64,000 nt of DNA from Chiridota heheva (taxonomy: Eukaryota > Echinodermata > Holothuroidea > Apodida > Chiridotidae): contig JAIGNY010001454.1 of the NCBI GenBank assembly GCA_020152595.1, positions 980,001 to 1,044,000 of the forward strand. The letters run 5' to 3'. How positions within the stretch are numbered: position 1 is the stretch's first letter; every line of letters begins with the position of its first letter. Under the pieces are notes generated by a model, which was not told where the DNA came from, made no database searches, and was given only the letters and a program-made list of their open reading frames with translations. Made by a program: the position numbers and the translations under genes. Positions 17,133-62,271 of the stretch are shown here, piece after piece.

Positions 17133-18607
17133 CCATGTTGATCCAACATAAATCGAACAAAAATATTTTGACAAAATCTCTTGTTTTATTTCAGTTTATC
17201 ATTTTTATAGCTCTTCCCCACAAAAAATACGTGGGTCCTGAAATATGTAATAAAAGTGCAATTATTCTATCATTACACATGTATATGAGGATAATATATT
17301 GTAGTCAGTTCGGGGGTATTGCACATAAATATAGGCTCTAGCCCCTAGACCCCACGACGCCTATAGGGTTATGTATAATAGCCTCATAGTTTGGGTAGGG
17401 GTCCTGAGTTTGTGACAGGGCCAAAGGCGGTGAACTTAAACATAAACGTCAGAGTCTGTTATTTCCTCTGCAGTCTTTCGGAAAATAACCGTAATTATGA
17501 TCATGTCCCGACCAATCATAGGCCTGCACAGTGGCGGCAATTTCTTTTACATTGGGAAGGGGGAGCGAACCCAGACAGTGGTGTAGCCAGCCAAATATAG
17601 CTTTATATGAGGCTTCATTTTTTTAGGGGGACATAATGATATTCGTCCCCCCAACAAAATTATTGGGGGACATGTTCCCCCGTCCCTCCGGGATCGCCGC
17701 CTATAGGCCTACATGGTCAGCCGTAACTAAAAACGCTAAGAGTGATATTATTATTATTTTTAAATACAACCAGTCGTAACTGTCACAAGAGCAATATTTA
17801 CATTACTTTCCTTCAATAAAAAGATCAGATCTGACTGTTTTTCTACATTATATACAGGGAGGTACTTTTGAACTTTTCGAAAGTTGGCCCTCCGCTAGTC
17901 ACTCGGTGATACCGCTTAGTTATAAAAAATATAAAAAAAAGGGCTGTCGTGGCAATTAATATTTTTGTATGGATACTAGAAATAGAACAAAGTGATGTAG
18001 GTTTTAATTTATGTATTATAAAATCTTAGAATAGAATAGATACAATAAATAAAGACGATCTGCAACTTGGTTCTCCTGAAATCAATTCTATCCACGCCCG
18101 AATTTAACAGGCTGGGAGGATTTCAGTGTGTGCATATGTGATGGTGAGCTGATGGAAAGTGGCGTACTCACGCTAAGTTTTTAAATTAACTCAAGTAAAC
18201 TCTTGCAGTTTCAGAAACGCATCCGATGAGACAAACCTCGTTCGTTTCAAATTTCAAATAATAATATATCTCAGTGACACTTCAAAAAATATTTTGGTGT
18301 AATAAATATGTTTCTGAAACAGTAAAAATGTCTCAATAATACCATTCTTCATATCACGTTTTAGACGTGGCTAGTAAACTATCGGATTGGTACTTGGAAG
18401 TCTACATTCCTCAACGTTGCCAATTTACACGAGTTTTTCGAATAAAAACAATTCCATAAATTTCTTAATTAGCATTGCTGAAATTGATTGTAGCGTTGTA
18501 ACCGTTAAAATACAACCTTCAATAAACTACACTTAATTTGAAGTCCATATTCTTTTCAATAATACAACAAATTAAATATAATTCTCAATTTAAAAATAGC
18601 GGATTAA
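17133..18607. other. Intergenic, MITE fragments only
   Basis: No gene recognised. A further GTGTAGCCAGCC terminus lies at 17579-17592 near GGGGGACAT-type words at about 17625-17680, probably another partial copy of the MITE family. The remainder is AT-rich without visible structure. Confidence 0.3.
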
Positions 18608-20203: not shown

Positions 20204-20245
20204 AGCTTACACAATAAACATGTAGACGAAAGTAGTAGTAAGAGG

Positions 20246-20770
20246 ACACTATACAGGCCCGGACGGGCCTGTATAGTGACCCCTGAGATTTTCTTCTGGG
20301 TCCTCGGATTGGTCGGGGTCTGTATAGTGGCCCCTAAGATGTTTTATTCATTTGCGTATACTTAATGCTAACTTCGGATTGGTCGGAGTCTGTATAGCGG
20401 CCCCTGAGAATTTTTTCTTGGTCATTGGATTGGTCCAGGCCAGTATAGCGGCCCCTGAGATTTTCCTCTGGGTCATCGGATTGGTCGGGGTCTGTATAGC
20501 GGCCCCTGAGATTTTCCAGCCAATCACTACCTGTATAGCGGCCCCTGAGATTTTTCTTCTGAGTCATCGGATTGCGTCACAAGATAGTCTCGACGACGGA
20601 GCTTTTGATTGGCCACTACCTGTATAGCGGCCCCTGAGATTTTCCAGGTCATCGGATTGCGTCCCAGGATATTCTTGACTGTTCCATAGAATCCTTTGCT
20701 GGCTTCTGATTGGTCACTGCCTGTATAGCGGCCCCTGAGATTTTTTTCTCTGGGTCATTGGATTGCCGTC
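20246..20770. repeat. Subterminal tandem units of foldback element, left
   Basis: Eight or nine units of about 45-90 bp, each with CTGTATAGCGGCCCCTGAG followed by ATTTT and usually a GGGTCATCGGATTGG word. The inverted counterpart is at about 23885-24260. The GATTGG words are inverted CCAAT boxes. Confidence 0.85.
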
Positions 20771-21430
20771 ACAGGATAGTCTCGATTGTTCTGCAGAGTC
20801 CTTTTAACGAGGTGTAGAGCTTTTCCTGACTGGGTGTGTCAGGTGATTGTAGGGTAAAAGTACCTGCCCCAACCAACGCAGGATACCGTAGGAGGCAAGC
20901 CATGGTAGATCTTTTTTTTTCTCCTTCCGCCCTCATTAGGGTTTCATCAGATCTTGAGTTACGAATGTTGGCATTCAACAGTGTGGTCTAATTGAATCAC
21001 CTAATTGTCGTAGATGAACCTGTCCGTTTCATGCGAGAGGACTTGCGGGATGATAGGTTTAATACCCGTACGGGAGGGTTGTCAGATCGGGCGTTTTGTA
21101 TAGATCAGTCGATATTTCTTGGTGATGGCTCTGGTGAGAACTTTACCGGAACCGTCTCTCTGGATGCGGTGAGAGTAGTGGACGGGAACGATGACTTCTT
21201 CATCATCGTCCCAAGCCCATAATTTTTCCATTCAATACTGTTGCCATATATGGTTATCACACCACTATTAATTGACCAATCTGATTAGTCAAAAAATGGC
21301 ATATTTCTATTACGCATTAAATGGACCAATACCTTGTTCCGCAGAGTCCTTTTAACGAGGTGTATAGTTCATTTGCAATGCTGGCTTCTGATTGGTAGGG
21401 GCCCGTCTGTATAGTGGCCTCTGAGATATT
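20770..21430 (+). repeat. Conserved inner module of foldback element, left arm
   Basis: Inverted copy of about 23215-23890. An open frame at 20992-21222 (76 codons, first codon TTG) matches the corresponding frame on the other strand of the right arm at 71 of 76 residues. The opposite strand is also open over a different part (20769-20978) in both arms. I recognise no domain, so this may be a captured gene fragment or plain DNA with few stops. Confidence 0.7.
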
Positions 21431-21756
21431 TTCTTCTGGGTCATCGGATTGCGTGACAATATATTATGAATTGTTCCATAAAGTCCTTTTAACGAAGTGT
21501 ATAGCTTTTCATGACTAGGTGTGTCAAGTGGGAAGGTATCATGGTACTCATTGTCGCCCATTTCACAACAATACACCCTGATAGTCTGTTAATTAGAAGC
21601 TTAGATTTGTCAAAGAGTTAAAACTGTACAAATAATATATATAAATCGCGAGTATCGATAATATCGAGATAATATCGTCACAATTACCGAGTCACGTCAT
21701 TCGAGAAACAAGGAAACTTGTCATGTTTGAGACCATGTTTTTAAAAATAGATAAGA

Positions 21757-21915
21757 TTTGAGCGACGATATTTTTTAAGCGGTGTGATTTGAGCGGCGAT
21801 ATTTTTTAAACGGTGTGATTTGAGCGGCGATATTTTTTAAACGGTGTGATTTGAGCGGCGATATATTTTAAAAGGTGTGATTTGAGCGGCGATATTTTTT
21901 AAACGGTGTGATTTG
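21757..21915. repeat. 31-bp tandem repeat within foldback arm, 5 copies
   Basis: Units containing ATTTGAGCGGCGATATTTTT and ending AAACGGTGTG. The right arm carries essentially one copy near 23120-23160, so the arms have diverged in copy number. Confidence 0.85.
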
Positions 21916-22464
21916 AGAACGAAATTTTATTTTCATATCCCATTGACTTTGCACAGGGGGCAAAATTTGAGCGACGATATTTTGAAAACGTTAATAATTT
22001 GAGAAGACATTTTTTTCTGACACTCCTCATTTAAGAAACAATTTTTCTGTAACACTCATTTGAGAAACAATTTTTCTGAAACACTGTCATTTGAGGCAGT
22101 TTTTTTGCTCAACTGTTTTTCATTTGAGAGGACCAAGATGGCGTCCTAACGGAGAATGACAGGACAGAACTGCACTCTAATGCAAAAAAAAAGGGTCTAC
22201 GGGGGATTCATCGTGGGAATAATCGGACAAAACTACGTTCTTAATAGAAAAAATGGCGTCAACGGGAGGGATGACAGGACAGAACTGCGCTTTAATGTGA
22301 AATACGGGGGTCTACGGGGATTCATTGTGGGAATAATCAGACAAAACTACGTTTCTAACGGGCAAAAAATGGTGTCAAAGGGGAAATGACAGGACAAACT
22401 GCGCTTTAAAAGGGGTGGGACTTGATTCCAAACCACCAAAATACCTTCTCAAAATTGACGCCCT

Positions 22465-22541
22465 GCTTCTTCTCCTCCTCCTCTTGCTCCTCCTCTTGCT
22501 CCTCCTTCTCCTCTTGCTCCTCCTTCTTCTTCTTCTTCTTC
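22465..22541. repeat. Polypyrimidine triplet tract in the loop
   Basis: A CTC/CTT/TGC triplet run at the symmetry centre of the foldback element. Its antisense translation gives a Lys/Glu-rich ORF (22406-22615), which is an artefact. Confidence 0.9.
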
Positions 22542-23214
22542 ACCGGATTTTCAAAAAGGGCATGCTCAAATGTAATGTTTGAGGAAAAAGTTAAAGGGGC
22601 GTGGTTTGGAACCAAGTCCCACCCCCTTTTAAAGCACAGTTCTGTCCTGTCATCCCACCGTTGACGCCATTTTGCCCGTTAAAAACGTAGTTTTGTCCGA
22701 TTATTCCCACGATGAATTCCCCGTAGACCCCCGTATTTTACATTAAAGCGCAGTTCTGTCCTGTCATTCCCCCTGTTGACGCTATTTTTTCCATTAAAAA
22801 CGTAGTTTTGTCCGATTATTCCCACGATGAATCCCCCGTAGACCCCTTTTTTCGCATTAGAGTGCAGTTATGTCCTGTCATTCCACCTTAGACGCCAGCT
22901 TGGTTCTTTCAAATGAAAAACAGTTGGACAAAAAATTTGCCTCAAATGACAGTGTTTCAGAAAAATTGTTTCTCAAATGAGTGTTTCAGAAAAATTGTTT
23001 CTCAAATGAGGAGTGTCAGAAAAAAATGTCTTCTCAAATTATTCACGTTTTCAAAATACCGTCGCTCAAATTTTGCTCCCTGTGCAAAGTCAATAGGATT
23101 TGAAAATACAATTTTGTTCTCAAATCACACCGTTTAAAAAACATCGCCGCTCAAATCTTACCTATTTTCAAAAACATGGTCTCAAACATGACAAGTTTTC
23201 TTGTTTCTTTGACC

Positions 23215-23890
23215 CAGAAGACAATATCTTAGAGGTCACTATACAGACGGGCCCCTATTAATCAGAAGCCAGCATTGCAAATGAACTGTACACCTCGTTA
23301 AAAGGACTATGCGGAACAAGGTTTTGATCCATTACATGCGTAATAGAATTATGCCATTTTTTGACCAATCAGATTGGTCAATTAATAGTGGTGTGATGAC
23401 CATATATGGCAACAGTATTGAATGGAACAAATATGGGCTTGGGACGATGATGAAGAAGTCATCGTTCCCGTCCACTACTCTCACCGCATCCAGAGAGACG
23501 GTTCCGGTAAAGTTCTCACCAGAGCCATCACCAAGAAATATCGACTGATCTATACAAAACGCCCGATCTGACAACCCTCCCGTACAGGTATTAAACCTTT
23601 CATCCCGCAAGTCCTCTCGCATGAAACGGACAGATTCATCTACGACATTTGGGTGATTCAATTAGACCACACTGCTGAATGCCAACATTCGTAGCTCAAG
23701 ATCCGATGAAACCCTAATGAGGGCGAAAGGAGGAAAAAGAGCTACCATGGCTTGCCTCCTACGGTATCCTGCGTTGGTTGGGGCAGGTACTTTTACTCTA
23801 CAATCACCCGACACACCCAGTCAGGGAAAGTTCTACACCTCGTTAAAAGGACTCTGCAGAGCAATCGAGACTATCCTGTGACGGCAATCC
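23215..23890 (-). repeat. Conserved inner module of foldback element, right arm
   Basis: Inverted partner of 20770-21430. The minus-strand frame at 23332-23661 is open for 109 codons, including the part shared with the left arm. It uses the same downstream features (GTTAAAAGGACT words, CTATACAGACGGGCCCC). Confidence 0.7.
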
Positions 23891-24279
23891 GATGACCAAG
23901 AGAAAAAAATATCTGGGGCCGCTATACAGGCAGTGACCAATCAGAAGCTAGCAAAGGATTCTATGTAACAGTCAAGACTATACTGTGACGCAATCCGATG
24001 ACCCAGAGGAAAAATCTCAGGGGTCGCTATACAGGTAGTGATTGGCTGGAAAATCTCAGGGGCCGCTATACAGGTAGTGGCCAATCAGAAGCTCCGTCGT
24101 CGAGACTATCTTGTGACGGCAATCCGATGACCAAGAGGGAAAATCTCAGGGGCCGCTATACAGGTAGTGTTTGGGAAAATCTCAGAGGCCGATATACAGG
24201 TAGTGACCTTGTCAGGGGCCGCTATACAGGTAGTGACCAAGGTCACTACCTGTATAGTGTCCCCTTACTACTAACGAAA

Positions 24280-37929: not shown

Positions 37930-38545
37930 TACAATGGAACATAAGGAGCCTTAAGGCCAATTCTGAAGAAATTGATGGCCACCACATTCAACCCGGTCGT
38001 CTTCTGCCTACATGAAACCTTGCAAACCACTGACCATTATTCCCTCAACAACTTCGCTTGCTATCACAAAAATCAAATGGAGTGGGGCATCTCCATTCTC
38101 GTTAGACACGATATCCCACACAGCCCTGTTCATGTGCACACTGACCTAAGGCTTCAGGCCATCTGTATGTCTATCTCCCTCCACAAAACCTTCACTCTTT
38201 GCAATATTTATCTCCCCCCAGCGCCAAGATTCAACCAACCAGCCTTAACAACCTTATCTCTCAGCTCCCCTCCCCCTTCATCCTTCTTGGTGACTTCAAC
38301 GCCCACAACCCTATGTGGGGCTCTATTACCACCACCCCCAGAGGCAAGCTCATTGAAAACACTCTTCGGCAACACAGCCTCTCCTTGCTCAACACTAACT
38401 CCCTGACCTACCTTTACCCTGCCACAGGCTTCCTTATCTGTATTGACCTGTCTATCTGCTACCTCAACCTCTTTGATTTTAGCTGGAGAGTCACTGCTGA
38501 TCTCTGTGGTAGTGACCATTACTCTCTTCTTATACACTCAAACCC
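37930..38545 (+). pseudogene. LINE endonuclease domain, frameshifted
   Basis: Begins with IIQWNIRSLKANSEE, continues in another frame with VVFCLHETLQ and CNIYLPP, then in a third segment FILLGDFNAHNPMWG and finally SDHYSLLI. These are the N-terminal, DFNAH and SDHxxL motifs of LINE endonucleases. At least two frameshifts separate them. Confidence 0.85.
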
Positions 38546-39199
38546 CCACTGACCACACCTCCAATTAGAACCTCGAGAAGGCTGACTGGCCTCTTTTCGA
38601 AACCCTTTGTGACTCACACCTCTCCCCCATCTCCTCAAGGGTGAGGATCCCATGTCAAACTTCAGTAATATCCTTATCAACATCGCCACCTGCTTAATTC
38701 TCCCAAACCCTTAATCACCCCCCCCTCAACCCCTGGTTCTCTGATGACTGCAAAACTGTTAACAAGAACAAGAAAAGGGCCCTCAGGAACTTTAAAACTA
38801 ACCGGACCACCCACAACCTCAACCTCTTTCGCATCAGCCGTGCCAAGGTCAGGCGCACTATCAAGGACAGTAAAACCAACACTTGGAACAACTTCATTTC
38901 TTCTCTTACCATCAACACCCCCACTAAGAAGATTTGGAGATTGGTTAACAGCTTCCACGGCAGGGTGGGCAAGTCTCCCAACTCCCATCTCTCCTGGAAT
39001 GGTGACCTTCTCACAGCGAAAAAGGACATCGTTAACCACCTTGCCACCTCTTTCAGCAACATCTCATCCTCGGCCAACTATTCCAATGCCTTCAAAACCA
39101 AAAAAGCTCGCGATGAAGCCCGGAGTATCACCTTTCCCTCCGAGTGCTACAACACCCCTCTCACCCTTTCTGAATTAAATCAAGCCATCCACGATGCTG

Positions 39200-40125
39200 G
39201 CTGCACCTCCTAGAGCTCAGATAACATCTTCTACCAGTTTCTGAAACACCTCCCCAACAAGGCCACCACTACCCTACTCACCATCTTTCACCACATTTGG
39301 TCCTCACACTCCTTTCCCCCTATCTGGTGGACAGCTATTGTCATCCCCGTCCTTAAACCGAGGAAGGACTGTACGGACCCCTCCAGCTTTCGCCCCATTG
39401 TCCTCACCTGCTGTCTCTGTAAAATTATGAAAAGGATCATTAATCAGAGACTAAACTGGTTCCTTGAGACCAACAGAATCCTCTCTCCTCACCAAAGTGG
39501 CTTCCGGAAACATCGCATTACCCTTGACTAGTTAATTACACTCGATTCTGCTATCCGGGAATCCTTTGCAAAAAAGGAACACCTCATTGCCATTTTTTTT
39601 ACCTTAAGAAAGCTTTCGACACTACTTGAAAATACGGCATTATCTGCAAACTTTACACCATCGGCCTCAGAGGCCATCTCCCCATCTTTATTCAAAACTT
39701 CCTCTCACCCAGGCAGTTCCAAGTTTGTATTGGCCACACCCTTTCCAACCCCTACTCCTAAGAAGAGGGCATTCCCCAAGGCAGCATTCTCTCTCCCACT
39801 CTCTTCAACCCGAGCATTAATGACATCGCGGACAGCCTTGGCCCCAGCATCAAACATACCCTCTACGTGGACGACTTCACCATCTTCTACTCCTCCCCTA
39901 GCTTTCCTCTTGTCGAAAATAGACGCCAATTCAGCCTCAGCCAGCTGCAAGTCTGGTGCAACAATAATGGTTTTGAATTCTTCAAAGACAAGACAGTCTG
40001 CATGTACTTCTGTCATTTTAACAACGTCCACCACAACTCGAACCTCGTGCTCAATGGCAATCGCATCCCTAAAGTTGAACACACAAAGTTCGTGGGTTTA
40101 AATCTAGTCCCCAAGCTCTCCTAGA
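39200..40125 (+). pseudogene. LINE reverse transcriptase domain, interrupted
   Basis: Contains FRPIVLTCCLCKIMKRI and LSPHQSGFRKHR (about 39390-39530), a stop after TLD, then LYVDDFTIFYSS with the catalytic YxDD motif at about 39859-39895, followed by thumb-like sequence. Both active-site aspartates survive, but stops and frameshifts elsewhere exclude a functional enzyme. Confidence 0.85.
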
Positions 40126-40714
40126 AGCAACACATCACCAACCTGAGACTGAAATGCAGCAGCTCCCTCAACATCCTCCGACTCCTCTCCAACACCAAAT
40201 CTTCAGGCTTACCATTCATGCAAAGCTTTACTACTGCAATATTGTCTACTGTGTTGCTCACAACTCATACTTCAACCACATCAACACCATCCAAAATGAA
40301 GCCCTCAGGCTTTGTCTAGGTGCCTACAGGACCTCCTCAATCACAAGCCTTCATGTTGAAGCCAACGAACCCCCGTTTCTGCTTAGATGTAGAAAGCTTA
40401 GCCTCTCCTATGCTTTTAGAGTCCTCACCAACACCCAGAACCCTGTTTACAACCTCATTAGGTACCCCAATTTCTCCACTCTCTTTGATAGGACTAAAAC
40501 CCTATCCCCTTCCTTTAGCTTACGCATTAAATCAGACCTCCTCCATCTTGGCATCAACCTCGCCACTCTCGGCACCTTCTCCTGGCCCACTTTTCCTTCT
40601 TGGGCCACCCCCCTCCCTTCTAACCACCTGGGCCTCTCCAATCATCACAAAACTTAAACCCATCCTAACCTCTTCAATAATCTCCACAACCAAATCAAAA
40701 ACCAACTCTCAAAC

Positions 40715-41090
40715 CACACCTCCATCTATACTGATGGCTCCAATAAAGACAGCTGCTGCTGCCGTCATCCAAGACATTACCCTCAGTAGCTGACTTTCCG
40801 ACTATTCGTCCATCTTTACAGCCAAGGCAAAGGCCATCCTCCTCACCCTCAACTTTATTGAGTACTCTCCGCTTAGCCACTTTGCCATTTTCTCTGACAT
40901 CAAGGCTGTTTTTACTTTTTTACTCAATCTTAAATGGGATAACTTCACATTCAACCTCCTCCTCCAGAAACTCCTTCCGCCCACCCTCTGCAGGAAAAGT
41001 ATTTTTTTCTTCTGGATACCCAGCCATGTTGGCATCCCTGGCAATGACAGGGCTGATGCAGCCGCTAAGCTTGCCCTCAACCTCCCCCTA
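40715..41090 (+). pseudogene. LINE RNase H domain, interrupted
   Basis: SIYTDGSNKD (first catalytic Asp) is followed, in another frame, by FTAKAKAILLTLNFIE (Glu normally catalytic is Lys here), FAIFSDIKAV (Asp) and FWIPSHVGIPGNDRADAAAK (His and Asp). The order and spacing fit RNase HI of I-like LINEs. Confidence 0.85.
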
Positions 41091-41264
41091 CCCTTTTACC
41101 CAAATCCCTTTCTGACATCAAACCGCTTATTGCTTCCCTTGTTCATGCCCGCTGGCAAACCTCATGGGACTCCCAAATTGATAACAAACTCCACGTCATC
41201 CAGCCCACCATTTCGACTAAACCAACTATCAACAACCTCTCTCGTGTCGACAACGTTCATATTA

Positions 41265-41410
41265 CTTGTCTTGGAATAGGTCACACCCACCTCACTCACT
41301 CCCACCCCCTAGTAGCTCCCCCCAACCCCTCTGCAACAATTGCCATTGCACCCTCACAGTCCATCACGTTCTCCTTGCTTGCCCCCGTACAACTTTCCCA
41401 GAGCTTGCCT
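41265..41410 (+). pseudogene. LINE C-terminal CCHC-type motif
   Basis: GIGHTHLTHSHPL in one frame, then CNNCHCTLTVHHVLLACP in another: the Cys-X2-Cys, His and Cys arrangement found at the C-terminus of I/Jockey-type ORF2 proteins. Confidence 0.7.
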
Positions 41411-41849
41411 CGCTCCCCACAACTCAATTGCTGAGTTCTTCCAGAAAAACCCTCGGGATAAAATTATCTCCTTCCTTCATCATGCTTCCCTCTACAACCA
41501 TATTTAGTTCTCCTCTTCCACCCCTCTCTCTACTTTGTTTTTTCACCCATGTACCTCTTCTCTCGATCCCAGCTTTCTGACATTTTGTTCTTGTATTTCT
41601 CTTATTCTCCCCCTGTTTTCTTTCCTTTCTACCTCTAGAATGATCTGACCTCTCAGGCACAATTTGACCCTCGTGGTGCCGTTAAGCTCTCATCAAACAA
41701 ACCATCAAAAACATAAAATGAAAGGCAAAATGTTTTGATGTCTATAAGTTTGCACTCTAGCAGTTGTACAAAGCCTGAAAACGATCCATATATTTATGTG
41801 GTAAAGACGTAGCAAATATCCAGGGACTTGTTTAATACAGTACATGTGT

Positions 41850-45358: not shown

Positions 45359-45467
45359 TTGAGACGTCAAGCCAGATTACGTCGTGAATATCTCTATAGA
45401 AAATCCCTAGAGGAACAGGACAGGGCAATCATTGAGAGGAAGCGAAAACTGAAGGAGGCGTTAGATG
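45359..45467 (+). CDS. IMP4: IMP4 (U3 snoRNP protein), first visible exon
   Basis: IMP4 acts with IMP3 and MPP10 in the nucleolar U3 snoRNP and is needed for early 18S rRNA processing. The exon follows a TTTTAG acceptor and encodes 36 residues beginning at residue 2 of the family: LRRQARLRREYLYRK, then a charged helix rich in Glu, Arg and Lys. It ends one base into a codon at a GTACAG donor. An in-frame TAG (45356-45358) sits immediately before, so the exon must be spliced to an upstream one. The phase and alignment imply that the upstream exon ends exactly with the initiator ATG. That exon was not identified. The next exon is 7.3 kb away across a large satellite. Identification is secure because three exons join in frame. 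Confidence 0.93.
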
Positions 45468-45587
45468 GTACAGTGCCATTTGTTTTTATTTCTGATGTAG
45501 CATATACTCATATAACAGCACATTAACAACATAAACTTGTGGTTGTTGATTTAATTTCACAATTATACCTCTTGATGCTCTTGAAAT

Positions 45588-48500
45588 CTACTTCAAGTAT
45601 ATCAAGCACTTATGATAGGACAAATCTTATCTACTTAAGTATACCAAGCACTTATGATAGGACAAATCTTATCTACTTAAGTATATCAAGCATTTATGAT
45701 AGGACAAATCTTATCTACTTAAGTATATCAAGCACTTATGATAGGACAAATCTTATCTACTTAAGTATATCAAGCACTTATGATCGACAAATCTTATCTA
45801 CTTAAGTATATCAAGCACTTATGATAGGACAAATCTGATCTACTTTAGTATATCAAGCACTTATGATCGACAAATCTTATCTACTTAAGTATATCAAGCA
45901 CTTATGATAGGACAAATCTTATCTACTTAAATATATCAAGCACTTATGTTCGGACAAATCTTATCTAATTAAGTATATCAAGCACTTATGATAGGACAAA
46001 TCTGATCTACTTAAGTATATCAAGCACTTATGATAGGACAAATCTGATCTACTTAAGTATAAGTGATATCAAGCACTTATGATAGGACAAATCTTACCTA
46101 CTTAAGTATATTCAAGCACTTATGATAGGACAAATCTTATCTACTTAAATATATCAAGCATTTTATGATAGGACAAATCTTATCTATTTAAGTATACTTA
46201 TCTAATTAAGCACTTATGATAGGACAAATCTTATCTACTTAAGTATATCAAGCATTTATGATAGGACAAATCTTATCTACTTAAGTATATCAAGAGCACT
46301 TATGATAGGACAAATCTGATCTACTTTAGTATATCAAGCACTTATGATCGACAAATCTTATCTACTTAAGTATATCAAGCACTTAGGATAGGACAAATCT
46401 TATCTACTTAAGTATATCAAGCACTTATGTTAGGACAAATCTTATCTAATTAAGTATATCAAGCACTTATGATAGGACAAATCTGATCTACTTTAGTATA
46501 TCAAGAACTTATGATAGGACAAATCTGATCTACTTAAGTATATCAAGCACTTATGATAGGACAAATCTTACCTACTTAAGTATATTAAGCACTTATGATA
46601 GGACAAATCTTATCTACTTAAGTATATCAAGCACTTATGATAGGACAAATCTGATCTACTTAAGTATACCAAGCACTTATGATAGGACAAATCTTATCTA
46701 CTTAAGTATATCAAGCATTTATGATAGGACAAATCTTATCTACTTAAGTATATCAAGCACTTATGATAGGACAAATCTTATCTACTTAAGTATATCAAGC
46801 ACTTATGATAGGACAAATCTTATCTACTTAAGTATATCAAGCACTTATGATCGACAAATCTTATCTACTTAAGTATATCAAGCACTTATGATAGGACAAA
46901 TCTGATCTACTTTAGTATATCAAGCACTTATGATGATCGACAAATCTTATCTACTTAAGTATATCAAGCACTTATGATAGGACAAATCTTATCTACTTAA
47001 GTATATCAAGCACTTATGTTCGGACAAATCTTATCTAATTAAGTATATCAAGCACTTATGATAGGACAAATCTGATCTACTTAAGTATATCAAGCACTTA
47101 TGATAGGACAAATCTGATCTACTTAAGTATATCAAGCACTTATGATAGGACAAATCTTACCTACTTAAGTATATTAAGCACTTATGATAGGACAAATCTT
47201 ATCTACTTAAGTATATCAAGCACTTATGATAGGACAAATCTTATCTACTTAAGTATACCAAGCACTTATGATAGGACAAATCTTATCTACTTAAGTATAT
47301 CAAGCATTTATGATAGGACAAATCTGATCTACTTAAGTATATCAAGCACTTATGATAGGACAAATCTTATCTACTTAAGTATATCAAGCATTTATGATCG
47401 ACTTAATCTCTTAAGTATATCAAGCACTTTATGATAGGACAAAATATCAAGCACTTATGATAGGACAAATCTGATCTAATTAAGTATACAAATCTTATCT
47501 ACTTAAGTATATAAAGCACTTATGATAGGACAAATCTTATCTACTTAAGTATATCAAGCACTTATGATTGACAAATCTTATCTACTTAAGTATATCAAGC
47601 ACTTATGATAGGACAAATCTTATCTACTTAAGTATATCAAGCACTTATGATAGGACAAATCTGATCTACTTAAGTATATCAAGCACTTATGATAGGACAA
47701 ATCTTATCTACTTAAGTATATTAAGCACTTATGATAGGACAAATCTTATCTACTTAATATATCAAGCACTTATGATAGGACAAATCTCTACTTAAGTATA
47801 TCAAGCACTTATGATAGGACAAATCTATCTATTAAGTATATCAAGCATTTATGATGACAAATAGGACAAATCTTATCTACTTAAGTATATCAAGCACTTA
47901 TGATAGGACAAATCTTATCTACTTAAGTATACCAAGCACTTATGATAGGACAAATCTTATCTACTTAAGTATATCAAGCACTTATGATAGGACAAATCTT
48001 ATCTACTTAAGTATATCAAGCACTTATGATAGGACAAATCTTATCTACTTAAGTATATCAAGCACTTATGATAGGACAAATCTTATCTACTTAAGTATAT
48101 CAAGCACTTATGATAGGACAAATCTTATCTACTTAAGTATATCAAGCACTTATGATGTATATCAAGCACTTATGATAGGACAAATCTTATCTACTTAAGT
48201 ATATCAAGCACTTATATCAAAGCACTTTTATGATAGGACAAATCTTATCTACTTAAGTATATCAAGCACTTATGATAGGACAAATCTTATCTACTTAAGT
48301 ATATCAAGCACTTATGATAGGACAAATCTTATCTACTTAAGTATATCAAGCACTTATGATAGGACAAATCTATATCTACTTTAAGACAAATCTTATATCA
48401 AGCACTTATGATAGGACAAATCTTATCTAGGACAAACTTTAGTATATCAAGCACTTATCTACTTTATGATACTTAGGACAAATCTTATCTACTTAAGTAT

Positions 48501-51500
48501 ATCAAGCACTTATGATAGGACAAATCTTATCTCTACTTAAATATATCAAGACAAATCTTATCACTTTATGCACTTATGATTGACAAATCTTATCTACTTA
48601 AGTATATCAAGCACTTATGATAGGACAAATCTTATGATATGATTGACAAATCTTATCTACATATATCAAGCACTTATGATAGACAAACTTAATGTATATC
48701 AAGCACTTATGATAGGACAAATCTATATCTACTTATTAGGACAAAGTATATCAAGCACTTATGATAGGACAAATCTTACCTACTTAAGTATATAAGCACT
48801 TATGATAGGACAAATCTTATCTACTTAAGTATATCAAGCACTTATGATAGGACAAATCTTATCTACTTAAATATATCAAGCACTTATGATAGGACAAATC
48901 TTATCTACTTAAGTATATCAAGCACTTATGATAGGACAAATCTTATCTACTTAAGTATATCAAGCATTTATGATAGGACAAATCTTATCTACTTAAGTAT
49001 ATCAAGCACTTATGATAGGACAAATCTGATCTACTTTAGTATATCAAGCACTTATGATCGACAAATCTTATCTACTTAAGTATATCAAGCACTTATGATA
49101 GGACAAATCTTATCTACTTCAAAGTATATCAAGCACTTATGTTAGGACAAATCTTATCTAATTAAGTATATCAAGCACTTATGATAGGACAAATCTGATC
49201 TACTTAAGTATATCAAGAACTTATGATAGGACAAATCTGATCTACTTAAGTATATCAAGCACTTATGATAGGACAAATCTTACCTACTTAAGTATATTAA
49301 GCACTTATGATAGGACAAATCTTATCTACTTAAGTATATCAAGCATTTGATGATAGGACAATGATCTTATGATAGCACTTATGATAGGACAAATCTTATC
49401 TATTTAAGTATATCAAGCACTTATGATAGGACAAATCTTATCTACTTAAGTATATCAAGCATTTATGATAGGACAAATCTTATCTACTTAAGTATATCAA
49501 GCACTTATGATAGGACAAATCTGATCTACTTTAGTATATCAAGCACTTATGATCGACAAATCTTATCTACTTAAGTATATCAAGCACTTATGATAGGACA
49601 AATCTTATCTACTTAAGTATATCAAGCACTTATGTTCGGACAAATCTTATCTAATTAAGTATATCAAGCACTTATGATAGGACAAATCTGATCTACTTAA
49701 GTATATCAAGAACTTATGATAGGACAAATCTGATCTACTTAAGTATATCAAGCACTTATGATAGGACAAATCTTACCTACTTAAGTATATTAAGCACTTA
49801 TGATAGGACAAATCTTATCTACTTAAATATATCAAGCACTTATGATAGGACAAATCTTATCTATTTAAGTATACCAAGCACTTATGATAGGACAAATCTT
49901 ATCTACTTAAGTATATCAAGCATTTATGATAGGACAAATCTTATCTACTTAAGTATATCAAGCACTTATGATAGGACAAATCTTATCTACTTAAGTATAT
50001 CAAGCATTTATGATCATTTATGACAAATCTTATCTACTTAAGTATATAAAGCACTTATGATAGGACAAATCTTATCTACTTAAGTATATCAAGCACTTAT
50101 GATTGACAAATCTTATCTACTTAAGTATATCAAGCACTTATGATAGGACAAATCTTTGATGTACTTAAGTATATCAAGCACTTATGAAGTATATCAAGCA
50201 CTTATGATAGGACAAATCTTATCTACTTAAGTATATCAAGCACTTATGATATGACAAATCTTATCTACTTAAGTATTAAGTATACCAAGCACTTATGATA
50301 GGACAAATCTTATCTACTTAAGTATATCAAGCATTTATGATAGGACAAATCTTATCTACTTAAGTATATCAAGCACTTATGATAGGACAAATCTTATCTA
50401 CTTAAGTATATCAATATCACTTATGATAGGACAAATCTTATCTACTTAAGTATATCAAGCACTTATGATAGGACAAATCTTATCAACTTAAGTATATCAA
50501 GCACTTATGATAGGACAAATCTTATCTACTTAAGTATATCAAGCACTTATGATAGGACAAATCTTATCTACTTAAGTATATCAAGCACTTTATGTACTTA
50601 AGTATATCGACAAATCTTATCTACTTAAGTATATCAAGCACTTATGATAGGACAAATCTTATCTACTTAAGTATATCAAGCACTTATGATAGGACAAATC
50701 TTATCTACTTAAGTATATCAAGCACTTATGATAGGACAAATCTTATCTAATTAAGTATATCAAGCACTTATGATAGGACAAATCTGATCTACTTAAGTAT
50801 ATCAAGCACTTATGATAGGACAAATCTGATCTACTTAAGTATATCAAGCACTTATGATAGGACAAATCTTACCTACTTAAGTATATTAAGCACTTATGAT
50901 AGGACAAATCTTATCTACTTAAGTATATCAAGCACTTATGATAGGACAAATCTTATCTACTTAAGTATACCAAGCACTTATGATAGGACAAATCTTATCT
51001 ACTTAAGTATATCAAGCATTTATGATAGGACAAATCTTATCTACTTAAGTATATCAAGCACTTATGATAGGACAAATCTTATCTACTTAAGTATATCAAG
51101 CATTTATGATCGACAAATCTTATCTACTTAAGTATATAAAGCACTTATGATAGGACAAATCTTATCTACTTAAGTATATCAAGCACTTATGATTGACAAA
51201 TCTTATCTACTTAAGTATATCAAGCACTTATGATAGGACAAATCTTATGTACTTAAGTATATCAAGCACTTATGATAGGACAAATCTTATCTACTTAAGT
51301 ATATCAAGCACTTATGATATGACAAATCTTATCTACTTAAGTATACCAAGCACTTATGATAGGACAAATCTTATCTACTTAAGTATATCAAGCATTTATG
51401 ATAGGACAAATCTTATCTACTTAAGTATATCAAGCACTTATGATAGGACAAATCTTATCTACTTAAGTATATCAAGCACTTATGATAGGACAAATCTTAT

Positions 51501-52388
51501 CTACTTAAGTATATCAAGCACTTATGATAGGACAAATCTTATCTACTTAAGTATATCAAGCACTTTATGACAAATCTTATCTACTTAAGTATATCAAGCA
51601 CTTATGATCTACTTTATCATTAGGACAAATCTTATCTACTTAAGTATATCAAGCACATATGATAGGACAAATCTTATCTACTTAAGTATATCAAGCACTT
51701 ATGTTCGGACAAATCTTATCTAATTAAGTATATCAAGCACTTATGATAGGACAAATCTGATCTACTTAAGTATATCAAGCACTTATGGTAGGACAAATCT
51801 GATCTACTTAAGTATATCAAGCACTTATGATAGGACAAATCTTACCTACTTAAGTATATTAAGCACTTATGATAGGACAAATCTTATCTACTTAAGTATA
51901 TCAAGCACTTAGGATAGGACAAATCTTATCTACTTAAGTATATCAAGCACTTATGATAGGACAAATCTTATCTACTTAAGTATAAGCACTTATGATAGGA
52001 CAAATCTTATCTACTTAAGTATATCAAGCATTTATGATAGGACAAATCTTATCTACTTAAGTATATCAAGCACTTATGATAGGACAAATCTTATCTACTT
52101 AAGTATATCAAGCACTTATGATAGGACAAATCTTATCTACTTAAGTATATCAAGCACTTATGATAGGACAAATCTTATGTACTTAAGTATATCAAGCACT
52201 AATGAATGATAGGACAAATCTTATCTACTTAAGTATATCAAGCACTTATGATAGGACAAATCTTAGCTACTTAAATATATCAAGCACTTATGATAAGACA
52301 AATCTTTTCTACTTAAGTATATCAAGCACTTATGATCAGACAAATCTTATCTACTTAAGTATATCAAGCACTTATGATAGGACAAATC
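45588..52388. repeat. 6.8-kb 42-bp satellite in IMP4 intron 1, ~160 copies
   Basis: Head-to-tail units of 42 bp containing TATCAAGCACTTATGATAGG and ACAAATCTTATCTACTTAAG. Marker variants recur in a fixed order: GTTCGGAC with CTAATTAAG; then two TCTGATCTACTT units; then CTTACCTACTTAAGTATATT. The last one appears near 46094, 46567, 47157, 48776, 49287, 49767, 50870 and 51842, giving spacings near 480-590 bp or twice that, i.e. a higher-order repeat of about 11-14 units. Around 48150-48780 the units are scrambled. Because 42 is a multiple of 3, ORFs reading NLIYLSISSTYDRT repeats occur in frame; I regard them as artefacts. Confidence 0.98.
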
Positions 52389-52787
52389 ATATTGAAAAAT
52401 TCTTATTCATTATATTGGTGTGTTGAGAAATATTTTTTATTTTTTATTTGAAAGGTCAAAATTTGAAATATCATTGACCAAATTACCTTCTTTTACTATT
52501 TCTAAAAATATAAATTTGTAAATTGTTGTGTTCACAGAGGCATTTATATGTTCACCAGACAACACAGTGTTAGAGGAAATCAGTTCCGTCATATTGGCGG
52601 CCATATTTTAAGGGTACAGTGTATGGGTGAAAACATGCTAGCAAAAGTCTTTCATATTAGATGGAAGGTGTGGCTGACTCTCATGCCAACAAAATCATGA
52701 AACATGCTGCATTTACCATTAACTACACTGCCTTTACGTCTGCCTAAGTTTCTTGTCAAATAATCAGATATATAATTGTTTTTACAG
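52389..52787 (+). other. End of IMP4 intron 1
   Basis: Unique-looking AT-rich sequence between the satellite and the next exon, ending in a TTGTTTTTACAG acceptor. No other feature seen. Confidence 0.6.
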
Positions 52788-52871
52788 AGAACAAGGAAAT
52801 CCCGACAACACTGCGGGAGGATGCTCTGAAACTACAGAAGTCACTGGCATATGATGATGATGGAGGGGAAG
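52788..52871 (+). CDS. IMP4: IMP4, second visible exon
   Basis: 84 bases: two complete the codon split by intron 1 (giving Glu), then 27 codons and one base. It encodes ENKEIPTTLREDALKLQKSL followed by AYDDDGGE. The acceptor is TTTTTACAG; the donor GTATCA is after GGGGAAG. The AG used is the first of two, because the second would shift the frame. The acidic run DDDGGE corresponds to the variable acidic linker before the Brix domain in family members. Confidence 0.93.
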
Positions 52872-53595
52872 GTATCAGTCATTTCCATAGTCACTTTAAT
52901 TGTTTCTATCTCAAAACTTATTTTTGACATCCATATATTGCTGTAATTGTTTATTTGATATGTTTCTGATTTAGAACAATAATCAAAATATCTGGCAGCA
53001 TTTGTTATTGTCTTTAAGGCAATGTCAAGATTTAATCCTTGAAGGTCCACGTGTTCGTGTCAAGAATGCATGGACATGCACTTTTCAAAAAATTATTTGG
53101 GTAGCTTAACATCGTGATATAAACGTAGTCCTGGTATCATTTGAAAGAGCTTGAATAATTCTTTCACAAAATGTAACTCTTTTATAGGAGTTATAGATTT
53201 TTGAGAAAACATAGGTTGAAAATGGGTAAAACTCACAAATTGATGAAAAATATATATATATATTTGTTTTGAAACTTACCAAACTTCAAGATCACATTTT
53301 TGCTTCAAAATCAAACACGCAAGTCCTAAGACATGATAGTATCGATTTCTGGTCAATTTTTGTTTATTATACTTATCTGTAATCTTTTTTTTGAACAAAT
53401 TTCATGAATTATTGCCTTTTTTTTGTGAAAAATATCACCGTACCAAAACCCTACATCGCCCATGCCATGCTTTGTTGAACCGTTGTTCTAAAGTGCTCGA
53501 AATTTAATTTAATTTGATTTATAAATAAAGGCATACCCCCTTAATTATGACTCAAAGCTATAAGAATTAGATTTCACCTTTGAGTAAATGATGAC
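52872..53595 (+). other. IMP4 intron 2, proximal part
   Basis: AT-rich, without recognised genes or clear repeats apart from a short TA repeat near 53251. Confidence 0.5.
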
Positions 53596-55920: not shown

Positions 55921-56790
55921 ATCTTATATTTTATCTTTCAGCCTTTATTTTCGGGAAATTTCTTGATAATAGAACAAGGTGTAACTTCTGTCAATGTCTC
56001 ACATACAGAGCAACTCGTGCAATTGTAATACATCTAAAAACTTCATTTTGCACTAGGTTTCAAAGCCTTAATGTAATTTTGTAATACCTTTGTGGTATCT
56101 TTCATCACAAGGGACCATTGCAAATGTAGAAACCACTTGTCAAGACATTTCTGTTTAAAACCAAGGAAAGAAGATTGACAAGGAGCATGGTAGTTTCCAT
56201 AGCAACCAATTGGATGAAAAACACCTTTTTGGCACATGATTGAAGATTTTTTCCTTTTGCATTCAGTCTTCAGAAGAAAAAATAAGTGACAGTTATTGCA
56301 TCTTAATTTAGCAGTTGATTAATTCAAAAAGTAGTAAATTAAAGATGCCTTCAAAGAGGAAAGAAAATCATGATTTAGGCTCCTAGATAGAATATAGCAA
56401 GCTTGAAATCATGATTAGGCTCCTAGATGGAATATGAGAAATAACAAGCTTGAAATGCATCACAGCTAATGCTCTTTATATTACACCTAAATGTGCATTC
56501 ATTAAAATGAATGTAGTTGAAAACTCTTGTATGACTTAAGTCAAGATTATCTGACATTATTTTTATTCAGTATTTCTAGTGCATTATTTCTCAAGATCCC
56601 AACTATAGCCTACCTATGCATATGCAGATTAGGCAGGCGATGCATATACATCTCATATAAAAATCCACCCACCTGTTGTTCCAGGCTCCATTAGTCTGCT
56701 TCTATAATATGACTTGCCTGGGGAAATAAATGAATGGAATTGGATGAATTAATTGATTAATTAATGGATTGATGATTTGATCATTGTATT
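55921..56790. other. IMP4 intron 2, no gene seen
   Basis: Mostly unique AT-rich DNA. At 56362-56455 a ~45-bp segment (ATCATGATTTAGGCTCC, AGCAAGCTTGAAAT) is duplicated in tandem. A GAATGGAATTGGATGAATT run near 56731 may be a LINE tail. Confidence 0.4.
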
Positions 56791-57351
56791 TCACCTACAC
56801 AGGGGACCTGGTAATTCACCTACACAGGGGACCTGGTAATTCACCTACACAGGGGACCTGGTAATTCACCTACACAGGGGACCTGGTAATTTACCTACAC
56901 AGGGGACCTGGTAATTTACCTACACAGGGGACCTAGTAATTCACCTACACAGGGGACCTGGTAATTTACCTGCACAGGGGACCTGGTAATTTACCTACAC
57001 AAGGGACCTGGTAATTTACCTACACATGGGACCTGGTAATTTACCTACACAGGGGACCTGGTAATTCACCTACACATGGGACCTGGTAATTCACCTACAC
57101 AGGGGACCTGGTAATTCACCTACACAGGGGACCTGGTAATTTACCTACACAGGGGACCTGGTAATTTACCTACACGGGACCTGGTAATTTACCTACACGG
57201 GACCTGGTAATTTACCTACACAAGGGACCTGGTAATTTACCTACACAGGGAACCTGGTAATTCAGCTACACAGGGGACCTGGTAATTCACCTACACAGGG
57301 GACCTGGTAATTTACCTACACAGGGGACCTGGTAATTTACCTACACAGGAC
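56791..57351. repeat. 25-bp minisatellite, left part, about 22 copies
   Basis: Units CCTACACAGGGGACCTGGTA plus ATTTA or ATTCA. The array is cut at 57351 by a DNA transposon and resumes at 60913 in the same phase once the 8-bp target duplication is counted. Confidence 0.97.
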
Positions 57352-58734
57352 CACAGGTGTTCCTAACGTTATGGCAACCTATACGCTTACTATATATATA
57401 ATAAAAGGTAGGACTCTTTTTTTAACGAGACTATCGAACCGTGTATAAAAATTCCTTTTTTTGACCACTCGCGAATCTTAATTACACTTTTTTACTCTAC
57501 TCACATTCGCAGGAGACTCCCTTCTTCTATATAATCCACGGTATTTGTTAGTTCTTTTCCGATTAGATGTACAACGATGAATTTTCTACCAAATTACACC
57601 AAATTACTGTCCAGACAATCTATTCGTCTTTCAATTTGCTGCAAACTAAAGGAACGTACGATGGCGTCATGAAGAAGCAGCACTGCAGTATTATTTTGAC
57701 AAGAACGAGCCAGGAATGTATCATTCATTACCGGATGAAAATTCGTAGTTAATAACTGGTCCGGGGTAAGGAAACATTGGTTTCATAAAATTCAGACTGG
57801 TTTCATAAAATTCAGACATTCAGATGGAAAAGGGATTACATGTACAAAAATTATATTGGAGGACACGTGCTTCTTTTTCAAGGAGTTATCAAAGGAATTT
57901 GTATAAAAATGGACCTGCAACATCTTGTACTAATTTCTTTTTTTTCAAAGTAAGGCTACAAAGATAATCTTTTTTTTTATTGCTATATGGATATGCACAA
58001 AAAGCAAACTAGCTTCTGGTCATCAATGAGCACATGGAAACGTAGCTGGGCTATGACAACAAGCCATTATTAATATGACAATAAATAAACAGTGGAAGTT
58101 TGTTAGAAATACTTCCTAGGGCCCAAGATAATGCTTTTAGAATTTGTCATTTGTGCAGGCAGGGAATGTACACTTTGGGGTACATTTGTCTCATTTGACC
58201 AAATTTTTGGATGAGTATTATGAGCTTATACCACCTCCATGCAGTTGGAGCCTTGTACAAAATGCATATCAAACTGAGTGCAGTAACAAGGTCATCAAAT
58301 TTTATAATCGAATTGTATTAATTGATGTTAAAATAATTTGGGACATGCTAACAGAAGTTAAAATACAGCAAAATATAAAGTATAAAGAAATTAATATATC
58401 ATTAAGTAACTCTTCTCTGTAATTCACTGTATACTGTGGCAGTAAAAAGTTAATCAACATCTTAAACCGAACTGTTGTCTGCACTTGTAATATTCTCAAT
58501 GTCCTTATCCAATGAAAGAATAGAACGAGTGCAAAGAGTTCCAGAAATATAAGATGACTGTACTATTTTGTAATAACAAAGAAGAGTTACTGAAGGAAAT
58601 TTTGTATTTCTTTATGTTTTGAACATATTTACACTGTGGATAACATTACTATATGTATGATATATATAGTGACCATGGTAACATGGGTATTAACAAGTTT
58701 TCAGTTCAGTTTTAGATGGTGATTATCTATGTTT

Positions 58735-59055
58735 CAAAGAAGAGTTACTTAAATGTTTATTTCTTTAGATTTTAAAGACACTATTTCCACTTGATAACAT
58801 ACATGTAACTATTGAACTTACAGAGAAGAGTTACTTAAAGGATATATTTATTTCTTCATATTTTGAAGAGACTATTTTAACTCGATGACATAACTATTAA
58901 AATTACAGAGAAGAGTTATTTAAAGGATACATTTATTTCTTTGTATTTTGAAGAGACTATTTTAACTTGACATAATTATTGAAATTACAGAGAAGAGTTA
59001 CTTAAAGAATATGTTTATTTCTTTATATTTTGAAGAGACTAATTTAACTAAATGA
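58735..59055. repeat. ~85-bp tandem repeat within the TIR element, 4 copies
   Basis: Copies start near 58738, 58824, 58909 and 58990 with GAGAAGAGTTACTTAAAGG-like words and TATTTTGAAGAGACTATTTT. A more diverged relative starts near 58579. Confidence 0.85.
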
Positions 59056-59079
59056 TATTGTCTTGAGATGCAGTATACA

Positions 59080-60520
59080 TTTTTTTTTTTTTTAAATATA
59101 TTTATTCAACTTCCAAAACAATAACAATCAACAGCTCAAGAAATATACAAAAAGTGAAGGTTTTTACAAAGTAAACAATTTCAAAGAAAATATAGAAGAA
59201 AAAAAAAGAAAAAAAGGGAAATTATGAATTACTGTTACTTTAAAAAAAATGTATCTTTAAACAGTTAGAGAGCAGCCCAAAAAATGGGTATTTTAAAATA
59301 CCCAAAAATTGGGTACTTTTATGTATTAGTCATCGCATGAGCCTACACATTTGACTAGCCCACACTAAACATATGAGGTTTCTCATTATCCGCTCCTGAT
59401 TGTCCAAAAATTCAATAGATGTCCTGAAATTTTGGAGACTGATAGTAAATAGATATCAAAAACTTTCTGTCGCTGTTTTTGAAATTCACGGTTGCTTTTT
59501 GAGAAATTAATAAAATAGATTATAAGCAGTCTGTTTTGTTCATTTTCTCAAAATTGCGACAATGAATTTCAAAAAGCAGCGTAAAAAGTTTTAAATATCT
59601 ATTTACTATCAGTCTCCAAAATTTTAGGATATTGATTGAATTTTTGACAATTGGAAAAAATGAGAAACCCCATATGTTTAGTGTGGATAGTCAAATGTGT
59701 AGGCTCATCGATGACGTAATACATAAAAGTACCTAATTTTTTTGGTATTTCAAAGTACCCAGTTTTTGGGTTGCTCTAACTGTTAAACATTGAAAATAAT
59801 CATAACTTCTTTTTTTAACATAAAAGTTTCTTTCCATCTCGAGCATCATCTTCATAGCTGTTTTAAATCTATAAAGAGTAGGTATGGTATTGGTATATTT
59901 ACATGTGAAAATAAAATATTTAGCGTGAAAAATAATGTAATTGTATTTGAAATAGTTTTCATCAGTATAACCAAGAGCAATAACTTTATAATTCAAACTT
60001 AAAGTTACATCACTTAAAGTATCAACAAAAACGTCATTCCAAAACTTAGATGAAATATTACATGACCAAAATAGATGCTTAAGGGTTTCACTGTCATTAC
60101 CACAAAAAGGAACAAAGGTCATTATCTAGTATTTTTAACTTGTGTAGGTAGCTATTTACAGAGAGTATTTTGTGAATGAATTTAAATTGGAAATAATGGA
60201 TTTTTGTTTCATGGACTGCTATAAAACAGTTAGAAAAATAACCTGCCATTCTTTGTCATTTATATCAAAAAACGATCCCAGTAATATTTAGTAATATGCA
60301 TCGCCCTGTTTGAATGACATAAATGATTATAACTCCACTTTGTGACTTTATTAACCGCACAATGTTACTTAAAACATTTTCTTGATAAGAAGGTATTTTC
60401 CTCTGAAAAGTACAAATATCAGATTTCCATTGCTTAGGAATGGCAGAGATCAACCATAGAAAAATGTAAAATTCTTAGAATTTATATCATAAACATCATT
60501 AAAAGATTTAAAATTATAGA
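59080..60520 (-). pseudogene. 5'-truncated L1-like LINE, 3' part of ORF2
   Basis: On the minus strand ISAIPKQWKSDICTF (from 60453) and, in a different frame, FCGNDSETLKHLFWSCNISS (from 60122) followed by NYIIFHAKYFIFTCK are hallmarks of the region after reverse transcriptase in L1/Tx1-type ORF2: the IPxxWK segment, the C-X2-C-like HLFxxC motif and the HAKYFI-CK tail. A T-run at 59080-59093 marks the poly(A) end. The frameshift and 5' truncation make it inactive. It lies wholly inside the TIR element. Confidence 0.8.
59262..59782. mobile_element. 521-bp foldback MITE inside the LINE
   Basis: Termini CAGTTAGAG and CTCTAACTG. The two halves are inverted copies over most of their length (for example GAGCCTACACATTTGACTA in the left half and its complement in the right). 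TTAAA directly repeats at 59257-59261 and 59783-59787, a possible target duplication. It is inserted at the 3' end of the LINE coding region. Confidence 0.85.
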
Positions 60521-60912
60521 TATGACCAGCGCCGAGTATAGATTCCCGGCCTGCGTTCTTGTCAAAATAATACTGCAGTGCTGCTTCTTCATGACGCCAT
60601 CGCACTACCGTTCCTTTAGTTTGCAGCAAATTGAAAGACGAATAGATTGTCTGGACAGTAATTTGGTGTAATTTGGTAGAAAATTCATCGCTTGTACATC
60701 TAATCGGAAAAGAACTAACAAATACCGTGGATTATATAGAAGAAGGGAGTCTCCCTAAAATGTGAGTAGAGTAAAAAGTGTAATTAAGATTCGCGAGTGG
60801 TCAAAAAGGAATTTTTATACACGGTTCGATAGTCTCGTTAAAAAAAAGAGTCCTACCTTTTATTATATATATAGTAAGCGTATAGGTTGCCATAACGTTA
60901 GGAACACCTGTG

Positions 60913-60985
60913 CACAGGACCTGGTAATTTACCTACACAGGGGATCTGGTAATTTACCTACACAAGGGACCTGGTAATTTTTCCT
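60913..60985. repeat. 25-bp minisatellite, right remainder, 3 copies
   Basis: Same unit as 56791-57351, resuming after the transposon. Beyond 60985 words such as GGGATTTG and GAGGACCTGGTTTTTTCGCC suggest decayed units to about 61190. Confidence 0.95.
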
Positions 60986-62164
60986 ACAATTTTTAGGCTT
61001 GGTTTTCCTAGGTATTTGTTATGTAACAAATTGTTGAAGGTCCCATGAATTTACCTGGTGGTTTGAACTTTTCCCAGGGATTTGTTAATTATCAAATGCG
61101 TGGTGGTCCCATATGCAGGGATTTCCCTAGTGGCTATTTGATTTGCTCTTTTGATCTACATTGAGGACCTGGTTTTTTCGCCTACAATTTTTAGGCTAAA
61201 TGTTTGTTATCAATGTTCATCTAAACTATTTATAAAGGTTGCGACAAACGTCAAAATTTATGTCTTCTCATGTTGTTTTGGGTTTGAATAAAGAACATGT
61301 GTGACAAGTATACAGGGTTGGAAAAATACACAAACGTCACTCACCACTCATTTATACAACTTTGCGAGTAGTACGATGAAATCAGTATTTCCAAGTCCTC
61401 GGCAACACTTTCAAACCAAATTTGACAATTTTGCACTAATAGTATGCCTCTCTATTGTCCTTTACCTGTGCCTGATTTCATGACTGTACATGCTTAAAAA
61501 CCAAGCAGGATATCTGAAAGTTGACGGCTAATGGCCAAATTTTAATTTATATTTTAGATTTTAATGGAAATATCACTTTGTGTGTGGGAGGGGGGAGTGC
61601 GTGTTTGTGTGTGTGTGTGTGGACAAGGGGCATTTCTTATTAGAGAAAAAACACAAGACAGTATTGTAAGTACGTTACCTGAAATAAACAGTTTCTTATG
61701 AATATCAGAACAAGATTTTCACTCACCATGGCTTAGCAGAGTGTGGTGTGTACCACAGTATATTGTAATATTTCTACTTGTCTTAATTTATTTTGCTCGC
61801 CTATGGCAAGCAGGTGAGTGATTTTTCCAACCCTGCAAGTACATTCTATAGACAAATACATTAATGATTGTAACATGTCCCTCTTATTCTTTGTTTGAGT
61901 TACTTATTTAGTTGCTTAATAAAGCAATACAAATATTATAGCACAGTAGGAAACAGAATCTGTTCAGCTTTACAAGGTCAATCCGAATAAGTTAACAAAG
62001 TGCTATCAAGTTAGGAGTCTATTAAAGTATTGCTTTATTACTTCTTATATCATATGTCACTGAAATGTTGAATGAAAGGCCAAAAGATGTATTCATAGTT
62101 TAGCTTTGATTTGCAATATGTGAATGGAGTTAACTTGGTTAACTTGATTTCTTGTGTCTGATAG
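60986..62164 (+). other. IMP4 intron 2, distal part
   Basis: No gene seen. Decayed 25-bp units, a GT repeat near 61607 and ordinary AT-rich DNA, ending with TTGTGTCTGATAG as acceptor of the next IMP4 exon. Confidence 0.5.
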
Positions 62165-62271
62165 AGCTGAATCACATTGATGATGAGTACAAATGGGCAG
62201 GGGTTGAAGACCCAAAGATCATGCTTACGACATCCAGGGACCCGTCTTCCAAACTCAAGCAGTTTGCCAAA
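62165..62271 (+). CDS. IMP4: IMP4, third visible exon (start of Brix domain)
   Basis: 107 bases: two complete the split Glu codon, then 35 codons, ending in phase 0 at a GTAAGT donor. Encodes LNHIDDEYKWAG, VEDPKIMLTTSRDPSSK and LKQFAK. The VEDPK-TTSRDPS segment opens the Brix (RNA-binding) domain in IMP4. Using the next AG instead (exon start 62167) gives a stop within four codons, which fixes the acceptor. The remaining two thirds of the protein lie beyond the window. Confidence 0.95.

Follow-up and report, generated by a model that had tools for sequence, protein, structure and literature searches.

The 25-bp minisatellite in an intron of IMP4 is most probably interrupted by three different mobile elements that lie one inside the other, a terminal-inverted-repeat (TIR) transposon containing a LINE fragment, which in turn contains a foldback MITE. 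As an explanation of the locus as a whole, this nesting is given a probability of about 0.86. The window is the whole 64-kb stretch of DNA that was analyzed, and all positions are counted from its first letter. A first-pass annotation of the same DNA had already pointed to this locus, with coordinates that are correct to within a few bases; the features as now delimited are listed in Table 1.

Table 1. Features of the nested insertion and of the flanking IMP4 exons
Feature	Position	Strand	Remark
IMP4 exon upstream of host intron (approximate ends)	52787..52879	+	found with an IMP4 query
25-bp minisatellite, left part (22 units and left part of split unit)	56788..57351	+	
Target-site duplication CACAGGAC, left copy	57344..57351	+	
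TIR DNA transposon, apparently non-autonomous, 3561 bp including inserts	57352..60912	.	
Left terminal inverted repeat, about 370 bp	57352..57721	+	
~82-bp tandem repeats inside TIR element	58568..59058	+	TRF 58806-59050, plus weaker copies from 58568
Probable LINE target-site duplication, 3' copy AATGTATACT (minus strand)	59072..59081	-	AA merges with poly-A tail
5'-truncated LINE fragment, 927 bp without MITE and one TTAAA	59082..60534	-	ORF2-like frame end, AATAAA, poly-A tail
TTAAA, left flank of MITE	59257..59261	+	
Foldback MITE, 521 bp, ends CAGTTAGAG / CTCTAACTG	59262..59782	.	
TTAAA, right flank of MITE	59783..59787	+	
Probable LINE target-site duplication, 5' copy AATCTATACT (minus strand)	60535..60544	-	right TIR inner edge
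Right terminal inverted repeat	60538..60912	-	
Target-site duplication CACAGGAC, right copy	60913..60920	+	
25-bp minisatellite, right part, back in phase	60913..60988	+	
IMP4 exon downstream of host intron (start approximate)	62164..62271	+	

The 25-bp array is found by TRF in two pieces, at 56788-57349 (22.6 copies, 94% matches) and at 60917-60988. The two copies of CACAGGAC that flank the TIR element between these pieces are identical at all eight bases, and in the 64-kb window this 8-mer occurs at exactly two sites of the plus strand, which are the two junctions, and at none of the minus strand. When the flanks are joined and one copy of the duplication is kept, the array consists of 22 units, then the 23-bp unit into which the element was inserted, then two more units and a partial unit, all in phase; the length of 23 bp is shared with two other units of the array. 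Because this short variant is private to the junctions and is present on both sides, it is regarded as a true target-site duplication rather than an accident of array phase, and the candidate explanation that the duplication is an artefact of the tandem array was rejected. This is in agreement with the first-pass annotation, where it was proposed that the array is split by a TIR element with a perfect 8-bp duplication and resumes in phase, such that the empty site can be reconstructed: the joined flanks are indeed an uninterrupted array.

The termini of the TIR element are CACAGGTGTTCC and GGAACACCTGTG. The alignment of its two arms has 381 columns, of which 359 are identical, with 8 mismatches (four of them in one adjacent cluster) and 7 gap events, and it was extended up to the probable LINE duplication, the last gap event being located where the alignment was cut. 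By blastn, the arms are 95% identical over 378 columns. Inverted termini together with a short direct duplication are the order-level properties of a cut-and-paste TIR DNA transposon. Without the LINE, the element is about 2.1 kb, of which about 1.35 kb lies between the arms and holds the ~82-bp repeats; an inverted partial copy of this repeat is found at 58377-58424. Most probably, an apparently non-autonomous cut-and-paste transposon entered the 25-bp minisatellite through a staggered 8-bp cut, visible as the duplication, by means of a transposase that would be encoded elsewhere.

Three of the gaps between the TIR arms are differences in the lengths of T-runs, as in noisy reads, and such differences could reflect an assembly artefact in which the array was falsely connected with a TIR locus from elsewhere, as might happen where the tandem repeats of a heterozygous animal are assembled wrongly. 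Faulty assembly of a tandem repeat is reported, from a draft genome, for one globin gene of amphioxus (PMC3087553). A misjoin would not, however, yield a perfect 8-bp duplication that is private to the junctions and has inverted ends on both sides, and such an artefact is therefore considered extremely improbable.

When either TIR arm was compared by blastn with the 64-kb window, the only match outside the arm itself was the other arm. Further copies of the TIR element, the LINE or the MITE were not found in the window either, apart from a distant relative of the MITE arms that is described below. Exact patterns of the TIR tips gave 0 matches in virus and prokaryote contig collections, which says little for an animal element, and these collections may omit records from the window's own genome. 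No transposase (hAT, THAP/P or MULE) was found in the six ORFs that were scanned of the 38 ORFs of at least 40 amino acids around the element. The sole domain matches in these six ORFs are below the cut-off, with 15.8 bits for FUR (cut-off 23.1) and 16.4 bits for Bromodomain (cut-off 21.7). The FUR match is carried by a 64-residue open frame in the TIR (60540-60731, minus strand), and a PDB search with the reading of this frame gave one match, at E 0.74. The two weak domain matches and the PDB match are probably due to chance. At the gathering thresholds of Rfam, there are 0 matches in the window. The TIR element may represent an undescribed family; new families are routine in animal genomes.

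The first-pass annotation had also described, inside the TIR element and opposite to it in orientation, a 5'-truncated LINE, and this is supported by a zf-RVT region on the minus strand and by the AATAAA and poly-A tail with which the fragment closes. On a frame-joined reading, the zf-RVT region scores 36.9 bits, above the Pfam cut-off of 27.5, but the raw ORF reaches only 18 bits and stays below it. In the joined reading, the upstream ~420 bp contain about four frame changes and one stop, and the last ~110 codons are free of both; upstream of the zf-RVT region, the frames were chosen by resemblance to L1. As frame changes and a stop are needed, either this LINE copy is inactive or there are indel errors in the assembly. 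A profile search with the upstream half of the reading gave no match to a reverse-transcriptase family, and no L1 ORF2p was found in the PDB searches with the LINE, one of which gave two chance-level matches and the other none. The C-terminal zf-RVT region, the poly-A tail and the 5' truncation are as in L1-like LINEs, compared with which only the last ~0.93 kb is present here; the truncated copy lacks the reverse-transcriptase and endonuclease domains, and for this reason the L1 clade is not proven.

On the minus strand, the sequence after the LINE tail is (AA)TGTATACT, and the sequence at the inner edge of the right TIR is AATCTATACT; nine of these ten bases match. This is a probable target-site duplication of the LINE, and it is new relative to the first-pass annotation. 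The match had been seen before its significance was tested, and among 2000 41-bp places drawn at random from the window, 8 gave a score this high; for the 101-bp region, this was the case in 34 of 2000 random places and in 54 of 2000 shuffles. The equivalent site of the left TIR (57715) has the sequence AATGTAT, in line with the 3' copy. Most probably, a LINE transcript was copied into the TIR element by target-primed reverse transcription and was truncated at its 5' end: the poly-A tail and the truncation are observed, and the 10-bp duplication is probable.

The LINE abuts the inner edge of the TIR, a coincidence that we estimate at roughly 2%. This position of the 5' junction at the right TIR would be explained if the LINE piece were filler, captured during the repair of an internal gap of the TIR element and not generated by reverse transcription, and the acquisition of non-TIR sequence is reported for the TIRs of the Drosophila element Galileo (PMC4168063). 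Filler is not expected, though, to stop at a poly-A tail, and the piece has both an AATAAA with poly-A end and the duplication matching at 9 of 10 bases; its capture as filler is considered improbable. The probable LINE duplication overlaps the inner edge of the right TIR, which would be the base of a hairpin if the two arms paired. A landing of the LINE that was not random, in which this hairpin base may attract the LINE endonuclease or the priming, is more speculative still and is regarded as very doubtful; if it were true, elements with long TIRs would be preferred landing sites of LINEs via their exposed stem-loop junction.

The MITE is located in the last codons of the LINE and, as previously noted in the first-pass annotation, is a 521-bp foldback element flanked by TTAAA. 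Its small size, its inverted arms and the TTAAA on either side are the properties of a MITE. After removal of the MITE and one TTAAA, the frame of the LINE ends with YDYFQCLKIHFF followed by the stop. By eye, alternative boundaries are possible, with a TAA duplication and the ends ACAG...CTGT. Most probably, the MITE entered near the 3' end of the ORF2-like frame, either here or in the source copy of the LINE, whereby TTAAA was duplicated. The arms of the MITE differ at 27 of 250 positions, which is about 11% (26 of 244 when other gap costs are used). Elsewhere in the window, at about 16810-16948, there is a sequence distantly related to the MITE arms (66-68%); it is part of a stretch (about 16660-17140) that, by eye, looks different in its outer sequence.

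The four layers are thus observed, as the first-pass annotation had stated. The order of insertion that it considered to be fixed, being array, TIR element, LINE and MITE, is overstated, because nesting shows containment only: a TIR element that already carried the LINE and the MITE could have entered the array last, and no feature of the window contradicts this. In agreement with such a late entry into the array, all 8 of 8 bases match in the outer duplication as compared with 9 of 10 in the probable LINE duplication, about four frame changes and a stop have to be assumed in the LINE piece, and the MITE arms (27 of 250) are more diverged than the TIR arms, of which 8 of 367 positions are mismatched (about 2%; Fisher p about 9e-6). 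Duplications of eight and ten bases, however, have no dating power, the MITE arms may have differed already in the source copy, and the TIR arms also have 6-7 indels in 381 columns, which is broadly consistent with equal residence and provides no real clock. If the MITE is the youngest layer, then its arms must have been unlike before arrival, or the TIR arms must have been kept alike. Weighing these points, we consider entry of the loaded element into the array rather unlikely; residence of the transposon in the array before it received the LINE is the simpler reading and the likely one.

The position of the nested insertion inside an IMP4 intron, as suggested by the first-pass annotation, is confirmed by the exons on either side. 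In the PDB, chains named IMP4 are matched by the reading of the downstream exon, with 7mq8 as the best match (E 2.1e-15). An IMP4 query detects both this exon and the upstream one, and a third IMP4 exon, found with motifs, is near 45360-45467. The host intron is about 9.3 kb. A single IMP4 intron of ~16.7 kb was considered and rejected, as an exon is present at about 52787-52879, and because of this exon, the nested insertion and a second array, with a 42-bp unit, are in different introns. This second array (45586-52392, 6.8 kb, also scored with a unit of 126 bp) starts about 120 bp past an IMP4 exon and occupies most of the interval to the next IMP4 exon that was found. The nested insertion is most likely an intronic passenger for which no function is needed.

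Several other features of the window were observed. A foldback-like element is located at about 20230-24270, with arms at about 20492-22436 and 22601-24199 that are far longer than in the nested insertion described above, that are 90-91% complementary in their two longest pieces and that are separated by a loop of about 164 bp. Both arms contain 115-bp and 29-bp tandem repeats, and the left arm has a 31-bp array; by eye, its possible ends are TAGTAGTAAG(A/G)GGACACTATACAGG, with a possible 6-bp duplication ACGAAA. A LINE-like stretch at 37945-41434 has open frames in several registers, with matches to Exo_endo_phos_2 and RVT_1 in the two ORFs that were scanned, and a reading of a Shal-type voltage-gated potassium channel is found at 10696-11949 on the minus strand (Shal-type 45.2 bits, Ion_trans 110.5 bits). 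The window is rich in tandem arrays, with 102 TRF rows, overlapping rows included. Tandem arrays within genes are also known from the amphioxus 'mirage' minisatellites, which are described as spanning exon-intron boundaries (PMC3087553), whereas the 25-bp array does not cross such a boundary.

Among the literature matches listed (titles and abstract starts), there is no treatment of this locus. Nested insertions in long-TIR elements are common, and the present case is clean but ordinary; no known mechanism is altered by it. It shows stacked insertions in a clean natural form, with a target-site duplication that is private, and would serve as a relative clock if other copies could be compared.

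The 8-bp duplication is compatible with the hAT, P and Mutator superfamilies, and as no transposase was found in the ORFs tested, the assignment of the TIR element to a superfamily is withheld. In the hAT superfamily, the target-site duplication is 8 bp, as it is here, and the consensus for the start of the TIR is YARNG. The termini of the TIR element, CACAG, deviate from this consensus at the third base, which is a C. The element thus resembles hAT elements such as Herves in its 8-bp duplication and differs from Herves in its TIRs, which are about 370 bp as compared with 11 bp in Herves.

The duplication is also within the range of 7-8 bp that is given for the P superfamily in PMC4168063. Galileo, a Drosophila DNA transposon with long TIRs of this superfamily, is described there as having duplications of 7 bp, and of 8 bp in three D. 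willistoni copies. In D. willistoni, other elements are inserted within about 17% of the Galileo copies, and the duplications are identical in about 89% of the copies with preserved ends (PMC4168063). The long TIRs, the 8-bp duplication and the presence of other elements inside are as in Galileo, whereas the host is different, no transposase is found and the duplication is CACAGGAC instead of GTATTAC. The combination of long TIRs with an 8-bp duplication also agrees with Mutator, when the range of 8-10 bp reported for Tetris is taken. This foldback element of Drosophila virilis is provisionally placed in Mutator by its authors (PMC4079207), and the present element is like Tetris in being non-autonomous, in its long TIRs, in its internal tandem repeats and in having a duplication within 8-10 bp. 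It is unlike Tetris in the location of these tandem repeats, which are between the TIRs here and inside the TIRs in Tetris (PMC4079207).
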